The notes beneath the pieces are model-generated. The model did no database searches, was not told where the DNA came from, and saw only the letters and a list, made by a program, of their open reading frames with translations. The position numbers and the translations under genes were made by a program. Positions 25,957-62,445 of a stretch of 64,000 nucleotides of DNA are shown here, piece after piece. The DNA comes from Streptomyces sp. GESEQ-4 (GTDB lineage: Bacteria > Actinomycetota > Actinomycetes > Streptomycetales > Streptomycetaceae), in NCBI RefSeq assembly GCF_017948455.1, contig NZ_JAFFSU010000019.1, positions 62,001-126,000 of the forward strand, read 5' to 3'. Position 1 is the stretch's first letter. Every line of letters starts with the position of its first letter.

Positions 25957-26434
25957 TTGAAGCGGGACCGGTGACGGACCACGCGCGGTGACTATCAGAT
26001 AGCGGAGATTCTGTGGTCGCCCTGTGAAGGAACGCCAGACAGGACGCGATCATGTGACCATGGTCACGGTACGTAATGACCTGTAACGCTATGAAGTGAA
26101 GGTAAGGCGCTCATAAGCGCAAGATCTTGCACAGCGGCCCACTCTTTACGCTTCTCTTAGCGAAGCTACTCGCCAGTGCTCAAATCCATCGCCAACTTGC
26201 CCCGCTCTAGCGGCAATTCGCGTATTTCTGACATGGGGCGCCCGTCGGCAGACGCGGCCCGATCCGCCACATCAGCTTCCAGGTGATTCCGCCCTCGAAG
26301 GGAGTCACACCACATGCACTCATTCCCCACAGGGTGACTACATCCCCTTCATGAGTCATCATCGGCTGCCGTGCGGGGGCGCTCTGCCCAGTCCGCCTGC
26401 ATTCCGGGGAATCTGGGGAAGGGGAACTGGGCCG
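25957..26434. other. Divergent intergenic region with three dyads
   Basis: 478 bp of lower GC content between the Rhs gene and the DNRLRE gene. It contains a perfect 14-bp palindrome GTGACCATGGTCAC (26054-26067), GCGCT-CATA-AGCGC (26107-26120) and a perfect 12-bp palindrome GCAAGATCTTGC (26119-26130). No small gene is convincing. It must hold both promoters. Confidence 0.75.
26119..26130. promoter_or_regulatory. Palindrome GCAAGATCTTGC
   Basis: Perfect 12-bp palindrome about 160 bp upstream of the Rhs start. The centre of the XRE-gene dyad (17018-17029, GCAAGATCTAGC) matches it at 11 of 12 positions, so one regulator may bind both. This is inference. Confidence 0.45.
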
Positions 26435-29400
26435 ATGACGCGCAACTGGCGCCGTACGCCCGGCCGTCGGGCCATCGCGACGCTGCTCGCCACCGCGATC
26501 GCCACGACCGGCATCGTGTACGCCGGATTCCGGCTGGACGGCGACGGGTCGCACGACGCTTCCAACCGGGACGGGCAGGCGCAGACCGTCAGCGAGTCCG
26601 CCGCGATCACCACCGCCGCCCGGAAAGGGAAGAAGGTCGAGGTGACGGCGGCGCGAACCGCGTCCTCCACCACGTGGGCCCGCCCCGACGGCCTGATGGA
26701 GAAGCGGCTGCACTCCTCCCCGATCCGCGCCAAGGTCGGCGGCGAGTGGAAGAAGATCGACCCCAACCTCCATCGCACAAAGGAGGGTTGGGAGCCGAAA
26801 GCCACCAACACCCGGATGGTGTTCTCGGCCGGGTCCGAAGGCCGGGGCGAGCAGCGCGCCGACCGCTCGGCTGTGCGGCGCGTCTCCCTTGTGAAGACCG
26901 CCACCGCCGACACCGGAACCCCGCTCGTCACGCTGTACGTGGGCGGCGGTGGCTACTCGATCCAGCTGACCTGGCCGGGCGCGGTGCCCACGCCCATCGT
27001 CGACGGCAACCGAATCCTGTACCCGGAGATCTTCCCGGGCGGCGACCTGGTGCTGACCGCCGACGACGACGGCTTCGGCCAGGTTGTCGTCGTGAAAACC
27101 CGTGAGGCCGCCGCGGACCCGCATGCGCAACAGCTCGCCTACGGTCTGAACTCGGCCGAACTGACCTTTCGGCTCAACCCGATCACCGGCATGGTCAGTG
27201 CCGTGAACGGCTACAGCGAAGAGGTGGCGGTCTCCCCCACCCCCTTCATGTGGGACAGCAGCGGCACCCCGGCCGTCACCGACGGCACGGTCGGCGCCAC
27301 CGCTCAGCCCACCGCACCCGAGTCCCCGGACCCTACGGGCTCGGCGAGCGCGTCCCCCTCGGACACCCCGAGCCCCTCGGAGGAGGCCGTCGAGTCGGAT
27401 GAGCAGGGTGACACCGACGTCGAGATCCTGCCCTCAGCCAGCGACGGGCCCGCCCCGACGGTCTCGGAGTCCCCTCTCCCGACCGCACCGGCGGAGCCGA
27501 CCCCGGCGCCCTCGCAGACCGGTTCCGCCGCGACGCTGAGCCTGCCGTCCCTGGACGGCCCGTCCCCCGACTCGCGCGGCGAACTCGTCGAGGCCGACAT
27601 CACCGCGGGTCAGTGGACGCTCACCCCCGACCAGGAGTTCCTGAACGACCCGGCGACCACCTACCCGGTCTTCATCGACCCCTCGGTCAAGAAGCACACC
27701 CAGAACTGGACCACTGCCTACAACAGGCACCCCAACGCCACCTTCTACAACGGCAAGGGCTTCAACAAGGGCGGCACCCACGAGGCCCGCGTCGGCTTCG
27801 AGTCCGACACCTGGGGCACCTCTCGGTCGTTCTTCAACATCTCCTTCGACAAGGGCCTCAAAGGCACCAAGATCACCAGTGCCAAGCTGCGAATGCTGGA
27901 GACATACTCCTGGTCATGCCAGTCCCGCTCGATGAGCGTCCACCTCACCGGCAAGATCAACTCGCACACCAACTGGAGGAACGCGCCCGGACTGCACGAC
28001 GGCAACAAACTGGCCACCAAGAGCTTCGCGCATGGCTACAAGTCCGGCTGCCGGGACGCTTTCGAGACCTTCGACGTGAAGAGCGGCGCCCAGAAGAGCG
28101 CCGACAAGGGCGCGGACATGATCACCTTCGGCCTGCGCGCCCGTGACGAGAACGCCCAGTACGCCTGGAAGAAGTTCCAAGCGAACGGCGACTTCGCCCC
28201 TGTGCTCGAACTCGTCTACAACCGTAAGCCGTCGATCGTCGCCAACTCCCTCGACCTCGGCCCGGACGGCAAGTGCACGACCACCAAGCCGTACGTCCGC
28301 ATGGGCTCCGGTGACCTGACCTTCACTGCCAAGGCCACCGACAAGGACAAGAACCTCGACTACTTCGACTTCGACCTGTGGGAGCTGGGCAAGTGGGACA
28401 CCACCGGTGACCTGCTGAAGTCGACCGGCAAGGTCTCCGCGGGCGGCGACACCGACACCGCGCTGCGCACCACGCCGAGGTTCTCCACCAGCGGCCTCAA
28501 GTCCGGTGCCACGTACTCCTGGCGAGTGCGGGCGGTCGACGACACGGGCATCACCTCCGGCTGGTACCCGAAGACACCCTGCCGGTTCGTCCTCGACACC
28601 ACCGCGCCCCGCCCGCCCAAGGTGTCATCCACCGACTTCCCCAATGCAGACGGCAGCGAGAACGGCTTCGGCAACAGCGCCGAGGACGCCAACTGGTCCA
28701 CCATCAAGTTCGGCACAGCCGGCTCCTTCACCGTCCGAGCTCTGAACACCGATGTCGTGCGCTACGAGTACGGCTACAACTCCACGACCTACACCGGCAG
28801 AGTGCCCCGCACCAACGGCACGGCGACCAGTGTCAGCGGCACCATCACCAATGCCAAGCCGCCCACGGCCGGCCCCAACGTGCTCTTCGTCCGCGCCGTC
28901 GACAGCGCCGACAACGTCTCCGAACCGACCAAGTACCTCTTCTACGTCACTCCGCGCGACCAGGCAGACAAGCCCGGCGACTTCACCGGCGACCAGATGC
29001 CCGACGTCATGACCGTCACCGAGTCCGGCAACCTTGCCCTCTACCCCTCCCAGGCGGATGCCCAGGACATCACCAAGGGGACCGGCGACCTGGACTACTC
29101 CATGCCGGGCGCCTATCGGGCCAATCCCGAGAAGGACCCCAACGGCGACGACGAGCAACCGCCGTATGTGGCCGCTCCGAACGGCCACTTCAAAGGCTCC
29201 CTGATCACCCACAACGGCGACATCTACGGCGGCGACGGCCTCCAGGACCTCGTCGTCCGCGTCGGCGGCAGGCTCTGGGTCTACCCCGGCGACGGCTACG
29301 GTGCTGTCAACATCGACCGACGCCAGGAGATTCTGCTGCCCTCGGGCTCACCCAGCCCGGCCGCCTTCACACAGATCGTGGCCGCGGGGGATGCCACCGG

Positions 29401-29914
29401 CGACGGCCGCACCGACTTCTTCGCCACCGTCAAGAACGCCGCTGGAACAGACGATGAGTTGTGGGCCTTCACCGGCTACCACGGCGCAACCGTCGACCAG
29501 GCCGTACGCCTGATCGCCTCCTCTTGGGCGGACCGCGACATCGTCCTCGCCCAGGACGTCTCCAGCGACGGCGTCACCGACATCGTGTACCGCAGCGCCG
29601 CCTCCGGCAGACTCATCCTCCGCAAGGGCATCGCCGCGAGCGGCGGCGGAGTCGAACTCAACTCCCTGTCCACCGCCGCCAACTCCTCCGGCGGCACCGA
29701 CACGGAGTACAGCGCCTCCGGCTGGGCCGTCAGCCATGTGCCCTTCCTGCTAGGCACACCCGACGCCAACAACGACAACATCCCCGACATCTGGGCCGTA
29801 CGGTCCGACGGATCCGTCCGCTTCCACCCCGGCGGCAGAGCCACCACCTCGAGCACGGGGACCGCGGTCGTCGGCCCCACCACGTGGTGGCAGGCGCGCA
29901 TCGCGGTCGGCTGA
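26435..29914 (+). CDS. Secreted DNRLRE-domain and FG-GAP-repeat surface protein
   Basis: 1159 residues from ATG 26435, preceded by GGGGAAGGGGAA. The signal sequence is ATLLATAIATTGIVYAGF after an Arg-rich start. Next comes a globular part (VTAARTASSTTWARPDGLME; KVGGEWKKIDPNLH), then a long Pro/Ser/Glu-rich spacer at about 290-400. A DNRLRE-type beta domain follows (ITSAKLRMLETYSWSC, VHLTGKINSHTNW, FGLRARDENAQYAWKKF), then a fibronectin-like segment (SGATYSWRVRAVDDTG). At the C-terminus are Asp-rich FG-GAP/VCBS-like repeats (DFTGDQMPDVMTV, DATGDGRTDFFATV, DVSSDGVTDIVYR, DANNDNIPDIWAV) that probably bind calcium. Proteins of this kind commonly accompany Rhs proteins in Streptomyces; the pair may work together outside the cell. 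Confidence 0.88.
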   Translation: MTRNWRRTPGRRAIATLLATAIATTGIVYAGFRLDGDGSHDASNRDGQAQTVSESAAITTAARKGKKVEVTAARTASSTTWARPDGLMEKRLHSSPIRAKVGGEWKKIDPNLHRTKEGWEPKATNTRMVFSAGSEGRGEQRADRSAVRRVSLVKTATADTGTPLVTLYVGGGGYSIQLTWPGAVPTPIVDGNRILYPEIFPGGDLVLTADDDGFGQVVVVKTREAAADPHAQQLAYGLNSAELTFRLNPITGMVSAVNGYSEEVAVSPTPFMWDSSGTPAVTDGTVGATAQPTAPESPDPTGSASASPSDTPSPSEEAVESDEQGDTDVEILPSASDGPAPTVSESPLPTAPAEPTPAPSQTGSAATLSLPSLDGPSPDSRGELVEADITAGQWTLTPDQEFLNDPATTYPVFIDPSVKKHTQNWTTAYNRHPNATFYNGKGFNKGGTHEARVGFESDTWGTSRSFFNISFDKGLKGTKITSAKLRMLETYSWSCQSRSMSVHLTGKINSHTNWRNAPGLHDGNKLATKSFAHGYKSGCRDAFETFDVKSGAQKSADKGADMITFGLRARDENAQYAWKKFQANGDFAPVLELVYNRKPSIVANSLDLGPDGKCTTTKPYVRMGSGDLTFTAKATDKDKNLDYFDFDLWELGKWDTTGDLLKSTGKVSAGGDTDTALRTTPRFSTSGLKSGATYSWRVRAVDDTGITSGWYPKTPCRFVLDTTAPRPPKVSSTDFPNADGSENGFGNSAEDANWSTIKFGTAGSFTVRALNTDVVRYEYGYNSTTYTGRVPRTNGTATSVSGTITNAKPPTAGPNVLFVRAVDSADNVSEPTKYLFYVTPRDQADKPGDFTGDQMPDVMTVTESGNLALYPSQADAQDITKGTGDLDYSMPGAYRANPEKDPNGDDEQPPYVAAPNGHFKGSLITHNGDIYGGDGLQDLVVRVGGRLWVYPGDGYGAVNIDRRQEILLPSGSPSPAAFTQIVAAGDATGDGRTDFFATVKNAAGTDDELWAFTGYHGATVDQAVRLIASSWADRDIVLAQDVSSDGVTDIVYRSAASGRLILRKGIAASGGGVELNSLSTAANSSGGTDTEYSASGWAVSHVPFLLGTPDANNDNIPDIWAVRSDGSVRFHPGGRATTSSTGTAVVGPTTWWQARIAVG

Positions 29915-30228
29915 GGAGGAGACCCGCCCCGGCCACCGCGCCGTTCCTACGCCGGGTGCGGGTTCCCGCCGTCAGGACCTTGAGCAGTCGTGGAAGCCGC
30001 TTCACCTGATCCTTGCGAGGATGCCCCGGCGTTCACGCCGGGGAGGACTCGCATCTCGAACCGGTGACGCGGAGCGTCACCGCGTCCGATGGCCGGGCGC
30101 GGAGTGCCCGCATTGCTGTCCGGCGGCGGAGCCGGGGAATTCGTACGCGTGTGCTGGATGGTCGCGCGGATGGGTGAGGATGTGCGAAGTTCGCCCGGGT
30201 GTGCGATGTGCTGCCAAGGTTTGGGGCT
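29915..30228. other. Intergenic region with two perfect hairpins upstream of tnpB
   Basis: 314 bp without a gene. CCCCGGCG-TTCA-CGCCGGGG at 30024-30043 and GGTGACGC-GGA-GCGTCACC at 30063-30081 are perfect 8-bp hairpins. The first has the same stem length and TTCA loop as a hairpin after tnpB (31517-31536). They look like IS200/IS605-type end structures or a remnant right end of a neighbouring copy. Confidence 0.6.
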
Positions 30229-31423
30229 GTGAAGCTGGTGGTGCAGGTGAAGCTGTTGCCGTCGCCGGAGCAGGCGGCGGCGCTGGAGGCGACCTTGCGC
30301 GCCTGCAACCGAGCCGCCGACCACGTCTCCCGGACCACCTTCCAATCGGGCATCAAGGACCGCAACGGGCTGCAGAAACTGGTCTACGCGGACATCAAGG
30401 CCACGTTCGGGCTGTCGGCACAGCCCGCGGTGCGGGTGGTGAAGAAGGTCGTGGACGCCTACGGCGCGCTCGCAGCGAGCCTCAAAGCCGGGCGGCTGGG
30501 CGGCCCCGAGTCGAAGCGGTACCGCAAGGCGGTCGGCTCGCCGGTCACTTTCCGGCCCGAGGCGGCGCAGCCGTTCGACGACCGGTGCCTGTCCTGGCAG
30601 ACGGACGCGCGGACGGTGTCGATCTGGACGGTGGACGGGCGGATGCGCGGCATCCGCTACACCGGCTCGTCGGACCAGCTCAAGACGCTGGCCGAGTACC
30701 GTAAGGGCGAGTCCGATCTGGTCCAGCGGGGCGGGAAGTGGTTTTTGATCGCGACCTGCGACATTCCCGATCCCGAGGTGTATGAGCCGGCCGACTGGTT
30801 CGGTGTGGACCGCGGCATCGTCAATCTCGCCAGCACCAGCGACGGCACCAACTACCAGGGCCGTCGGCTGAACCGCTACCGGCGCTGGCAGGCCCGCAAA
30901 CGCGCCGAACTCCAGACCAAGCGCACCCGTTCGGCCACCCGCCGCCTGGCCCGTCGGGCGAAGCAGGAGCAGCGCCATGCCACCCATGTGAACCACCGGA
31001 TCTCGAAGGAGATCGTGTCCGTCGCGATGGGGGCACCTCCCGCGCGAGCGAAGCCGAGCGTGGGGGAGCACCGGTCGCGGGATTGCCGTCGAGCAGCTCG
31101 ACGGGATCCGGGACCGGGCACGGCTTCGCCGCGACCAGCGGGGCACCTTGTCTTCCTGGCCGTTCCACCAGCTCGGGCAGCACCTGGCCTACAAGGCCCG
31201 CCGGGCCGGGGTGCCGTTTGTGGAGGTGGATGCGGCCTATACCTCGCAGCGCTGCCCGCGCTGCGGGCACACCGAGCGGGCCAACCGGCCCGACCGGGAC
31301 CGTTTCTCCTGTCGTCGGTGCGGCCTCGCTGGGCCTGCCGATCACGTCGCCGGGGTCAACGTGCGCGACCGCGCGCGCTCGGCGTGGGTGTTCGTCACCG
31401 CACCCGTCCTCGCATCGGCCTGA
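30229..31423 (+). pseudogene. TnpB (IS200/IS605 OrfB family) interrupted by a hairpin repeat
   Basis: The frame from GTG 30229 reads as TnpB: KLLPSPEQAAALEATLRACN, then the RuvC-I motif WFGVDRGIVNLAST (Asp194) and HATHVNHRISKEIVSVA. At 31026-31068 a 43-bp hairpin repeat follows and the frame shifts. In another frame the protein resumes as TGRGIAVEQLDGIRDRARL (RuvC-II Glu), SSWPFHQLGQHLAYKARRAG, the zinc finger CPRCG...CRRCG, and ADHVAGVNVRDRA (RuvC-III Asp), ending at 31423. All catalytic motifs survive on both sides, so the disruption looks recent. Intact TnpB is an RNA-guided DNA nuclease. No tnpA is present. Confidence 0.88.
31026..31068 (+). repeat. 43-bp hairpin repeat, copy A, inside tnpB
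   Basis: It starts GATGGGGGCACCTCCC and ends CGAGCGTGGGGGAG. The C-rich and G-rich arms and inner CTC/GAG-like pairs form a hairpin. It is nearly identical to 62216-62257, and both copies are in the same orientation on the plus strand. It causes the tnpB frameshift. Confidence 0.88.
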
Positions 31424-31495
31424 ACAGGCCGGATTGTGGGGAGATGCGACCCGTGACCGTCCTGTCGTAGGGGGCAGTCGGGAGCGCGACAAGGT

Positions 31496-31550
31496 GTGAA
31501 CGACCGAGTACACAAGCTCGGCCGTTCACGGCCGAGAAGGTGACCTCAAC
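31496..31550 (+). ncRNA. Possible TnpB omega-RNA 3' end / element right end
   Basis: 73 bp after tnpB, two mutually exclusive stems share bases: GTGAACGACCGAG (31496-31508) with CTCGGCCGTTCAC (31517-31529), 12 of 13 pairs, and CTCGGCCG-TTCA-CGGCCGAG (31517-31536), perfect. After it comes AAGGTGACCTCAAC (to 31550). In IS605-type elements the omega-RNA overlaps the tnpB 3' end, and a short conserved end directly precedes the guide. The boundary is inferred. Confidence 0.4.
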
Positions 31551-31619
31551 GGGTGATCACACCGTCGGCCCGGGCTCTGCTGCCGCCGGGAATGGTGCGC
31601 CACTCCTTACTCTGACGTC

Positions 31620-32030
31620 ATGTCAGATGACGAGTCGTACGAGCTGCTCGGTTTCGACAATGTGCTGCTGCCCGTCGGGGACCTCGGTGAGGCCGTCGAC
31701 TTCTATGAGCGGGCCGGGTTCGCGGTGGCGTTCCGGTTCGACGAGGCCGGGATCGCGCTGCTGAAGGTCGGGGGCGAGACGCCGGGGATTCTGTTGCGGG
31801 CCGAGGAGGAGTTCGGGCACCGGCCGCCGACGTGGCCCTCGCCCAAGGTGTGGCTGGAGGTACCGAACGCCAAGATCGCCGCCCAAGTACTGCTCGGTGC
31901 CGGTATCGCCCTGCACGACGAGCCGTTCTCCGGGGCCACCGGCTGGACCGTCGAGGTCGCCGACCCGTGGGGGAACGTCATCGGGCTCACCGACTACACG
32001 AAACGGCCCGAGCTCGCACGGAGGGCCTGA
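31620..32030 (+). CDS. VOC-family (glyoxalase-like) protein
   Basis: 136 residues from ATG 31620. The vicinal-oxygen-chelate fold is visible as two beta-alpha-beta-beta-beta units: LLGFDNVLLPVGDLGEAVDF, YERAGFAVAFRFDEAGIALL, then KVWLEVPNAKIAAQVLLGAG and WTVEVADPWGNVIGLTDY. The typical metal Glu/His set is not complete enough to name a reaction. It could be a bleomycin-resistance-like binding protein or a small dioxygenase. The gene stands alone, upstream of the TetR-controlled operon. Confidence 0.88.
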   Translation: MSDDESYELLGFDNVLLPVGDLGEAVDFYERAGFAVAFRFDEAGIALLKVGGETPGILLRAEEEFGHRPPTWPSPKVWLEVPNAKIAAQVLLGAGIALHDEPFSGATGWTVEVADPWGNVIGLTDYTKRPELARRA

Positions 32031-61024: not shown

Positions 61025-62445
61025 CTACGGCAGCACCCGGCACAACGCGTCCAGCGCCCCCGTCCACGCATGGTCCGGTGGTGTGCCGTACCCCACGACC
61101 AGCGCGTCCAAGGGCTCGGCCACGGCCTCCCGGTGGCGGAAGTAGGTCAGTCCGTGCAGGGCGAGGCCCTGCCAGGTGGCGGCCTGGAGCACGGACTTCT
61201 CGGTGCCGGGCGGGAGGCGCAGGACGGCGTGCAGGCCGGCCGCGATGCCGGTGACCCGGACCTCCGGCGCCCGCGACGCCAGGGCCGCGACCAGGGCGTC
61301 ACGGCGGCGCCGGTAGCGCAGCCGGGCGGCGCGTACATGGCGGTCGTAGGCCCCGGACGTGATGAACTCGGCCAGCGTCAGCTGGTCCAGCACCCCGCAG
61401 GTGTCGTGGCCGCCCTTCGCCGCCACCGCCTCCTCCGTCAGCCCGGGCGGCAGGACCATCCACGCCAGGCGCAGCGCGGGGGCGAGGGACTTGCTGGCCG
61501 TGCCGAGGTGGACCACGCGGTCCGGGTCGAGATCCTGGAGGGCGCCTATGGGCTGGCGGTCGTAGCGGAACTCGCCGTCGTAGTCGTCCTCCAGCACCAG
61601 CCCGCCGGTGCGCCGCGCCCAGTCCACGAGGGCCGTCCGTCGGTCGCGGTGCAGGGGCACGCCCATGGGGAACTGATGGGCGGGGGTGAGGAGTACGGCG
61701 CCGACGCCGCTCAACTCGCCGATGTCCGTGCCGAGTTCATCGAAGGGGAGGGGGCGGGTGCGCAGGCCGGCGGCCGTGAGCAGGTCCCGGTGCGGGGGAA
61801 GGCCGTACGCCTCCACGGCGGCCGTCCGTGTGCCGCGCGACCGCAGGACCGTGGCGAGGAGCCCCAGGGCGTGGGCGAAGCCGGAGCAAATCAGGATCCG
61901 GTCGGGGTCGGTGCGCACGCCGCGGGCTCGGGCGAGGTAGCCGGCGAGTGCGGTGCGCAGTTCGACGCGGCCGCGGGGGTCGCCGTAGCCGAGGGCGTCG
62001 CTCGGGGCGGCGGTGAAAGCGCGGCGGGCGGCCTTGAGCCATGCGGCGCGGGGGAAGGAGGCGAGGTCGGGGGTGCCGGGGCGCAGGTCGTACTCCGGAC
62101 GGTGCTGCTCCCGGCGGGAGCGGGACGGGTCGGCCGGCGGGACGACCGTACGGTCTCCGACGCGGGTGCCCGAGCCCTGGCGGGCGGTGAGCCAGCCCTC
62201 GGCGACGAGGTCGGCGATGGGGGTCCCCCCGCGCGAGCGAATTCGAGCGTGGGGGAGTCGGCGACCGTGTTGCGGGCGATGCCCAGGTCGGCGGCGAGGG
62301 TGCGAGAGGAGGGCAGCCGGGTGCCGGGGGCGAGGCGGCCGGTGCGGACCGCCTCGCGCAGGGCGTCGGTCAGGCCCCGGCGCAGGCCGGTACCGGTCGG
62401 TTCCAGATGCAGGTCGACGCCCAGAGTGGCCCAGGATTCCGCCAT
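61025..62445 (-). pseudogene. MocR-family (GntR wHTH plus aminotransferase-like) regulator, frameshifted by a hairpin repeat
   Basis: From ATG 62445 the frame encodes a GntR winged helix: GTGLRRGLTDALREAVRTGR, LAPGTRLPSSRTLAADLGIA, RNTVAD. A 42-bp hairpin repeat then follows (62216-62257) and the frame is lost. The rest continues in another frame: IADLVAEGWLTARQGSGTRV, then the fold-type-I aminotransferase domain with ILICSGFAHALGLLATVL, DYDGEFRYDRQPIGALQDLD and the PLP-lysine motif HLGTASKSLAP, ending at 61025. It would regulate the divergent AhpD-like gene. As the two halves are no longer in one frame, function should be lost unless frameshifting occurs. Confidence 0.85.
62216..62257 (+). 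repeat. 42-bp hairpin repeat, copy B, inside the MocR gene
   Basis: Starts GATGGGGGTCCCCCC and ends CGAGCGTGGGGGAG. It is the same element as 31026-31068, one base shorter with a few substitutions, and replaces a short piece of the winged-helix coding sequence. Confidence 0.88.

Follow-up and report, generated by a model that had tools for sequence, protein, structure and literature searches.

A short hairpin element splitting a Streptomyces tnpB gene and the mostly in-frame genic copies of its probably mobile family

In the accessible text of the reports on Rickettsia palindromic elements (RPE), these are described as mobile palindromes that lie between genes and also in frame inside unrelated protein genes, where they add a peptide to conserved proteins of an obligate intracellular genus; the lengths quoted are 105-146 bp or about 150 bp (PMC2229807, PMC10969869). 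Repetitive extragenic palindromic (REP) elements, with their GTAG and CGTC families and tyrosine transposases, are short hairpins found mostly between genes and sometimes inside them, and Streptomyces is unmentioned in the available part of that account (PMC3733652). The window analyzed here is the whole stretch of 64,000 nucleotides (nt) from contig NZ_JAFFSU010000019.1 (positions 62,001 to 126,000) of Streptomyces sp. GESEQ-4, a 9.24-Mb draft genome in 75 contigs. Within it, a hairpin element of 42 nt interrupts a tnpB gene (31027-31068, forward strand) and a 41-nt copy interrupts a regulator gene (62217-62257, forward strand). The element very probably belongs to a non-autonomous family of mobile Streptomyces hairpins, whose in-frame genic copies would be kept by selection. 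The broken tnpB is the exception, the usual outcome in genes being an in-frame insertion of 12 residues.

As with RPE, some copies of the Streptomyces hairpin lie outside genes while others are inserted in frame into unrelated ones, and counterparts have empty sites. Nevertheless, the element is much shorter (41-42 nt vs. ~105-150 bp), GC-rich, and replaces 5-6 nt, so that it is likened to RPE by description and not claimed as a member. By analogy, it may work as RPE do, as a mobile palindrome whose peptide is tolerated, while frameshifting copies persist where the gene, like tnpB, is dispensable. Counterparts of RPE are also on record for Wolbachia. With REP elements it shares the form of a short hairpin repeat with mostly non-coding flanks and occasional presence in genes, but it lacks a conserved GTAG or CGTC tag at its ends, and its own genome lacks a Y1 transposase. 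Like miniature inverted-repeat transposable elements (MITEs), it is small, non-autonomous and mobile, with an inverted-repeat core, yet it shows no target duplication and no longer transposon with the same ends was found in its own genome. A literature search, in which subscription journals were mostly outside coverage, returned no description of the element sequence, of its peptides, or of such an element in Streptomyces.

The interrupted tnpB gene (forward strand) is in frame with its start (VKLVV) up to EIVSVA (30229-31026), and beyond the element it continues in a shifted frame, with TGRGIAVEQL..., from 31070 to a stop at 31423. The two TnpB domains recognized by Pfam are split over these two frames, OrfB_IS605 in the N-terminal one and Cas12f1-like_TNB in the C-terminal part. 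The gene belongs to a 1.54-kb insertion element (30001-31544, forward strand; TTCAC ... AAGGTGAC) present in four copies in the genome, with identical ends and differing, unrelated flanks, in addition to one distant relative with 65% identity. Two of the paralogues (C44 and C55) are uninterrupted, with open frames of 385 codons each, and contain 5 nt where the window has the 42-nt element, resulting in a net gain of 37 nt. The initial annotation had reported a frame-shifting hairpin of 43 bp directly after EIVSVA (31026-31068) and had suggested alignment with uninterrupted homologues; the alignment with C44 and C55 bears out the split and defines it as 42 nt for 5 nt, without target duplication. 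The tnpB copy on C16 carries the insert at the identical position, with different flanks and base differences, and its N-terminal frame ends at a stop inside the element. Since the two interrupted copies (C11 and C16) share 474/477 positions 3' of the insert and 94-97% 5' of it, the insert appears to have spread with the tnpB element or by recombination. Nine near full-length tnpB matches from 199 genomes of the genus (L061-L069) cover 260-264 bases, vs. 297-301 of the query, and judged by length alone, unaligned, they appear to be devoid of the hairpin. The tnpB copy in the window is most likely dead. The TnpB nuclease family is nonetheless retained in this genome, where two intact paralogues persist, and the earlier suggestion that an RNA-guided nuclease had been inactivated would hold for this copy but not for the family. 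As a separate observation, the 30001-31544 element has no transposase gene of its own, although its four copies have sharp common ends and the genome has no Y1 transposase.

The second copy in the window, of the 41-nt type, shifts the frame of a GntR/MocR-type gene on the reverse strand, which we take to be a MocR-type regulator. The N-terminal GntR part (62260-62445) precedes the element, and the aminotransferase-like part (Aminotran_1_2; 61025-62212, equivalent to L014:292-1479) follows it in another frame, the reading frame meeting stops further on. This is the unrelated gene in which the same element had been noticed, near 62216, by the initial annotation. The net gain was +35 nt against all three relatives compared, which are devoid of the element. 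When up to three mismatches were allowed, the core pattern matched the window at two places only, 31045 and 62234, both exactly, while two or more matches were obtained in 1 of 100 shuffles. At 62217 the element is flanked by TCGGCGA on either side, which at first seemed a convincing target duplication but was dismissed as a coincidence because the three relatives give a net +35 nt, with ~6-7 nt at the empty site, and TCGGCG is already doubled in two of them.

A search of the whole genome for the element consensus, as the initial annotation had advised, located the core pattern in 26 places with 0-1 mismatch (reversed control: 4 places at up to 3 mismatches). One of these 26 copies (L019), with an aberrant left arm, failed the fuller pattern. 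The 29-nt core was found in 16 of 40 genomes of the genus, whereas none of the 354 genomes from the remainder of the class had it; the reversed pattern, used as a control, gave 0. A pattern holding the 42-nt type only had exact matches in 80 of the 295 genomes of the genus that were scanned (no control hits among the matches listed), with copy numbers ranging from 20 in one genome to 0 in many; loci were available for 30 copies among the matches listed. In a scan of named genomes, all 80 loci among the matches listed (at least 119 stretches) belonged to Streptomyces. Two main length types were distinguished, of 41 nt (GGGGGTCCCCCC) and of 42 nt (GGGGGTACCTCCC and similar), with ends that read as ATGGGGG...TGGGGGAG and, also by reading, no conserved GTAG or CGTC tag. 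Five hairpins of the same genome (L326, L327, L329, L330 and L331) have the same outer arms, TGGGGGTCCCCCC...TGGGGGAG, around different, self-complementary-looking inner stems, and are probably sister families of the element.

In order to evaluate the reading frame of the host genes, 180-nt flanks were scored separately on each side with a codon model trained on 170 long frames, a procedure that favours no frame. Copies sharing both of their 40-nt flanks were treated as one, and 5 of the 108 rows had short flanks. At a log-likelihood ratio (LLR) of 15, both flanks were non-coding in 68 of 103 copies. Where the two flanks of a copy were coding on the same strand, the frame was maintained across the element in 17/18 (LLR > 15), 26/28 (LLR > 8) and 27/30 (LLR > 5), where one third would be expected (binomial probability, assuming independence, 9.6e-8 for 17/18 and 6.9e-11 for 26/28). 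A second sample, comprising 30 copies taken from other genomes of the genus and all of the 42-nt type, showed the same trend (10/10, 13/14 and 15/17, respectively). The exceptions at LLR > 8 were the regulator copy of the window and L154 in the first sample, and L352 in the second. In L154 the frame through the element runs seven codons to a stop, the other scored frame probably being the next gene, and L352 is situated immediately after a stop codon. Of the three exceptions, these two are at gene ends, and both were kept in the counts. The right flank of neither interrupted tnpB copy reached the threshold; direct comparison shows both to be out of frame.

To determine the net length added by the element, the two flanks of each of 18 insertions in other species were joined and searched in the own genome. 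Counterparts, whose orthology is unproven, were found for 16 of them (17 pairs, as one insertion matched two own genes) and for neither L111 nor L173. The net gain was +36 nt in 15 of the 17 aligned pairs, +42 in one (L154) and +72 in another (L114) with two nested copies. In the reverse comparison, own copies gained +36 nt relative to the counterparts of pgi (four, one of them the second pgi of the own genome), of a GGDEF/EAL gene (three) and of L016 (three). Overall, 26 of 29 alignments to relatives were without the element and three carried it. The empty counterparts hold ~5-6 nt where the element stands as 41-42 nt. A different picture was obtained from R1 and R2, repeats that host copies outside genes, with filled spacers of 40-42 nt vs. 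empty ones that are most often 6 and 5 nt long. Here net gains were 35, 36 or 37 nt, multiples of three in only 5 of 19 cases; these copies may have been amplified together with R1 and R2. In one R2 copy nothing but ATGGGGGAG remains, which is what would be left if the element had been lost between its direct repeats TGGGGG.

The proteins that receive the insert are diverse. Based on NCBIfam models, matches above cut-offs identified glnE (L102), squalene synthase HpnC (L109), pepN (L114), hemC (L131), cobyric acid synthase, cobQ (L132), and acetaldehyde dehydrogenase (L154). The best matches of L134 (trehalose-phosphate synthase) and L158 (acyl-CoA dehydrogenases) stayed below cut-off, and L112 and L173 had no NCBIfam match at 1e-20; we take these two to be tricorn-like and rho-like, respectively. 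Pfam assigned L024 to PGI, L029 to homogentisate dioxygenase, L007 to CopC and CopD, L009 to GGDEF and EAL, L141 to acyl-CoA dehydrogenase (two genes) and L149 to PNKP ligase. The inserted peptides comprise 12 residues, e.g. GGTSRSSEAESGG. Relative to solved structures, the insert corresponds to a 14-residue gap in pgi (2wu8) and to a 12-residue gap in L158 (acyl-CoA dehydrogenase 5lnx). The same loop (~RD-x-YV) is interrupted in several acyl-CoA dehydrogenase-like genes (L141, L158, L341, L347 and L361, the last three named by eye), and these few cases suggest that GGCGAC (Gly-Asp) is a preferred target and that the loop tolerates the insert. An AlphaFold model of an insert-bearing acyl-CoA dehydrogenase, built from three aligned sequences, reached a mean predicted local distance difference test score (pLDDT) of 39.1 and was not used. 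The decorated host proteins presumably still work. At the apparent site of fresh-looking copies in L173 and L338, a decayed element is present in L335 (G000:C34:198500-198850), a gene that is presumably also rho-like; this difference indicates that some insertions are old and fading.

The hairpin itself is best seen in the comparison of copies. In the set used for covariation, in which 106 of 108 rows fitted the pattern, one stem position is paired as T-A, G-C or C-G in 52 of 53 distinct sequences, a value reached by none of 20000 permutations, although element subfamilies exist and the covarying changes are not all independent. The loop is GNA, where N is A in 33 distinct copies, G in 9, C in 9 and T in 2; GCGAAGC is an unusually stable small DNA hairpin. 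Folding as single-stranded DNA was better than in shuffles for the 62217 copy (z = -2.95). Two results argue against the hairpin, since the tnpB copy with short flanks folded no better than shuffles as single-stranded DNA (z = 0.36), and a repeat tool did not report it, its sole inverted pair combining a portion of the element with sequence 58 nt downstream. Covariation across copies is stronger evidence for the hairpin than folding. A search of Rfam with 29900-31700 resulted in two matches far below gathering scores, which were taken as chance.

The element is considered mobile because copies lie inside copies and because it is present or absent between species. Ten copies were flagged as adjoining or inside other copies, and seven of them (L097, L098, L114, L116, L135, L167 and L170) have element arms on both sides; moreover, the same site occurs with and without the element among relatives, and the same DNA is found in unrelated genes. 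The mobile Streptomyces repeat entering genes that the initial annotation had proposed is therefore upheld, while a MITE-like or REP-like nature is not obvious: neither a target duplication nor a conserved tag was found, nor a Y1 transposase in the own genome. No target-site duplication was present at the empty sites examined. Half-element patterns disclosed no longer transposon with the same ends in the own genome: the right-half matches were 26, namely 24 core copies and 2 degenerate ones, and the left-half search with one mismatch gave 76 places vs. 72 in the control, with little information beyond exact matches. A trimmed transposon, or a REP with its own transposase, was considered and is not apparent in the own genome, in which all right-half matches are element copies and no Y1 transposase occurs. 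Speculatively, template switching or a recombinase could account for the ~5-6 nt being replaced and for the resemblance of some targets to the element's G-rich end.

As the probable course of events, the element would enter G-rich sites, often GGCGAC-like, would come to stand in place of ~5-6 nt and would thereby add ~35-37 nt. Selection would then retain the genic copies that add a multiple of three nt, with the host protein gaining 12 residues, whereas the tnpB (+37) and MocR-type (+35) copies would have missed the frame and become pseudogenes. The interruption of tnpB may have been affordable, as the gene would be dispensable and intact paralogues remain. The inactivation of genes proposed by the initial annotation thus describes this tnpB copy but not the usual effect, genic copies being nearly always in frame with 12 residues added. 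A rival explanation attributes the bias to the chemistry of insertion, which would always yield +36 nt by replacing a fixed target patch, with the tnpB and MocR-type copies as later one-base slips. It would account for the almost constant +36 nt in genes, on both strands and in both length types, and for L012, a copy with non-coding flanks that gains +36 nt in two of two relatives. However, the copies in R1 and R2 give +35, +36 and +37, and the +35 of the MocR-type copy against three of three relatives and the +37 of tnpB against two paralogues make the process look inexact; we regard this explanation as quite unlikely. Mainly because the genic +36 contrasts with the spread in R1 and R2, selection rather than insertion chemistry probably fixes the frame. 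A bolder proposal, that an active, genus-specific hairpin with its own mover replaces a GGCGAC-like hexanucleotide as a mobile cassette, tuned to coding DNA, whose 12-residue, glycine/serine-rich peptide loop tends to leave the host proteins unbroken, seems rather unlikely.

Other explanations concern tnpB itself. Translational bypass, known from some yeast mitochondrial genes, would allow the ribosome to skip or shift over the hairpin and still make full-length TnpB. The presence of a hairpin and the 474/477 identity of the interrupted copies after the insert are compatible with it, but such identity can also stem from recent recombination or conversion, the N-terminal frame of C16 stops inside the element, that of the MocR-type gene meets later stops, and bypass is needless where most genic copies are simply in frame, all of which makes it very unlikely. 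That the hairpin serves the tnpB element as a functional component, for instance in regulation or as part of a guide RNA, is suggested by its identical site in two of the four tnpB elements; this is extremely unlikely, considering that the other two and, by length, nine near full-length genus matches are without it, and that the same sequence occurs in many unrelated genes. An error of sequencing or assembly, for which the draft state of the genome (75 contigs) could speak and which the initial annotation had also envisaged, has a virtually negligible probability: C16 has the same insert and frame with other flanks and base differences, C44 and C55 have empty sites, and the element is repeated in many other genomes.

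Several observations weigh against a mobile family whose genic copies are kept in frame by selection. No transposase or other mover was identified; in particular, the Y1 transposase (Y1_Tnp, PF01797) had no match in the own genome, which is 99.98% complete, and was present in 5 of 14 control genomes. Four of the 29 alignments to relatives were unclear in length (net 34, 33, 29 and 19 nt), and two hmgA alignments gave +39 nt, including a separate 3-nt gap. The counts of in-frame copies are not all independent, owing to shared ancestral insertions (e.g. three hemC copies) and to copies that may have been amplified along with repeats, and the same genes seem, from a look at the sequences, to recur within and between samples, so that independent events are fewer. 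Finally, 71 of 74 distinct copies are free of stops in six frames, but so are 3129 of 9137 42-mers of the window and 302/5000 and 2671/5000 shuffles of the two types; six-frame openness was consequently rejected as proof of adaptation to coding DNA, being too common by chance.

Regarding the neighbourhood of tnpB, the listed start (MSHHRLPCGG...) of the long upstream gene (26351-29914) looks too early, and a start at MTRNW seems likelier.

To the extent that the sources consulted cover them, in-frame mobile palindromes have already been described for Rickettsia and some REP-rich genomes, and the present family adds an abundant and very short one in Streptomyces. Several of the enzymes it enters belong to primary metabolism (pgi, hemC, glnE and cobQ). 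For annotators, stretches resembling GGTSRSSEAESGG in Streptomyces proteins should be treated with caution, as they are probably insertions. For TnpB, the genome offers a naturally broken copy alongside intact paralogues. Since Streptomyces can be grown and manipulated, it is testable whether the inserts harm, spare or help the host proteins, and what moves them.
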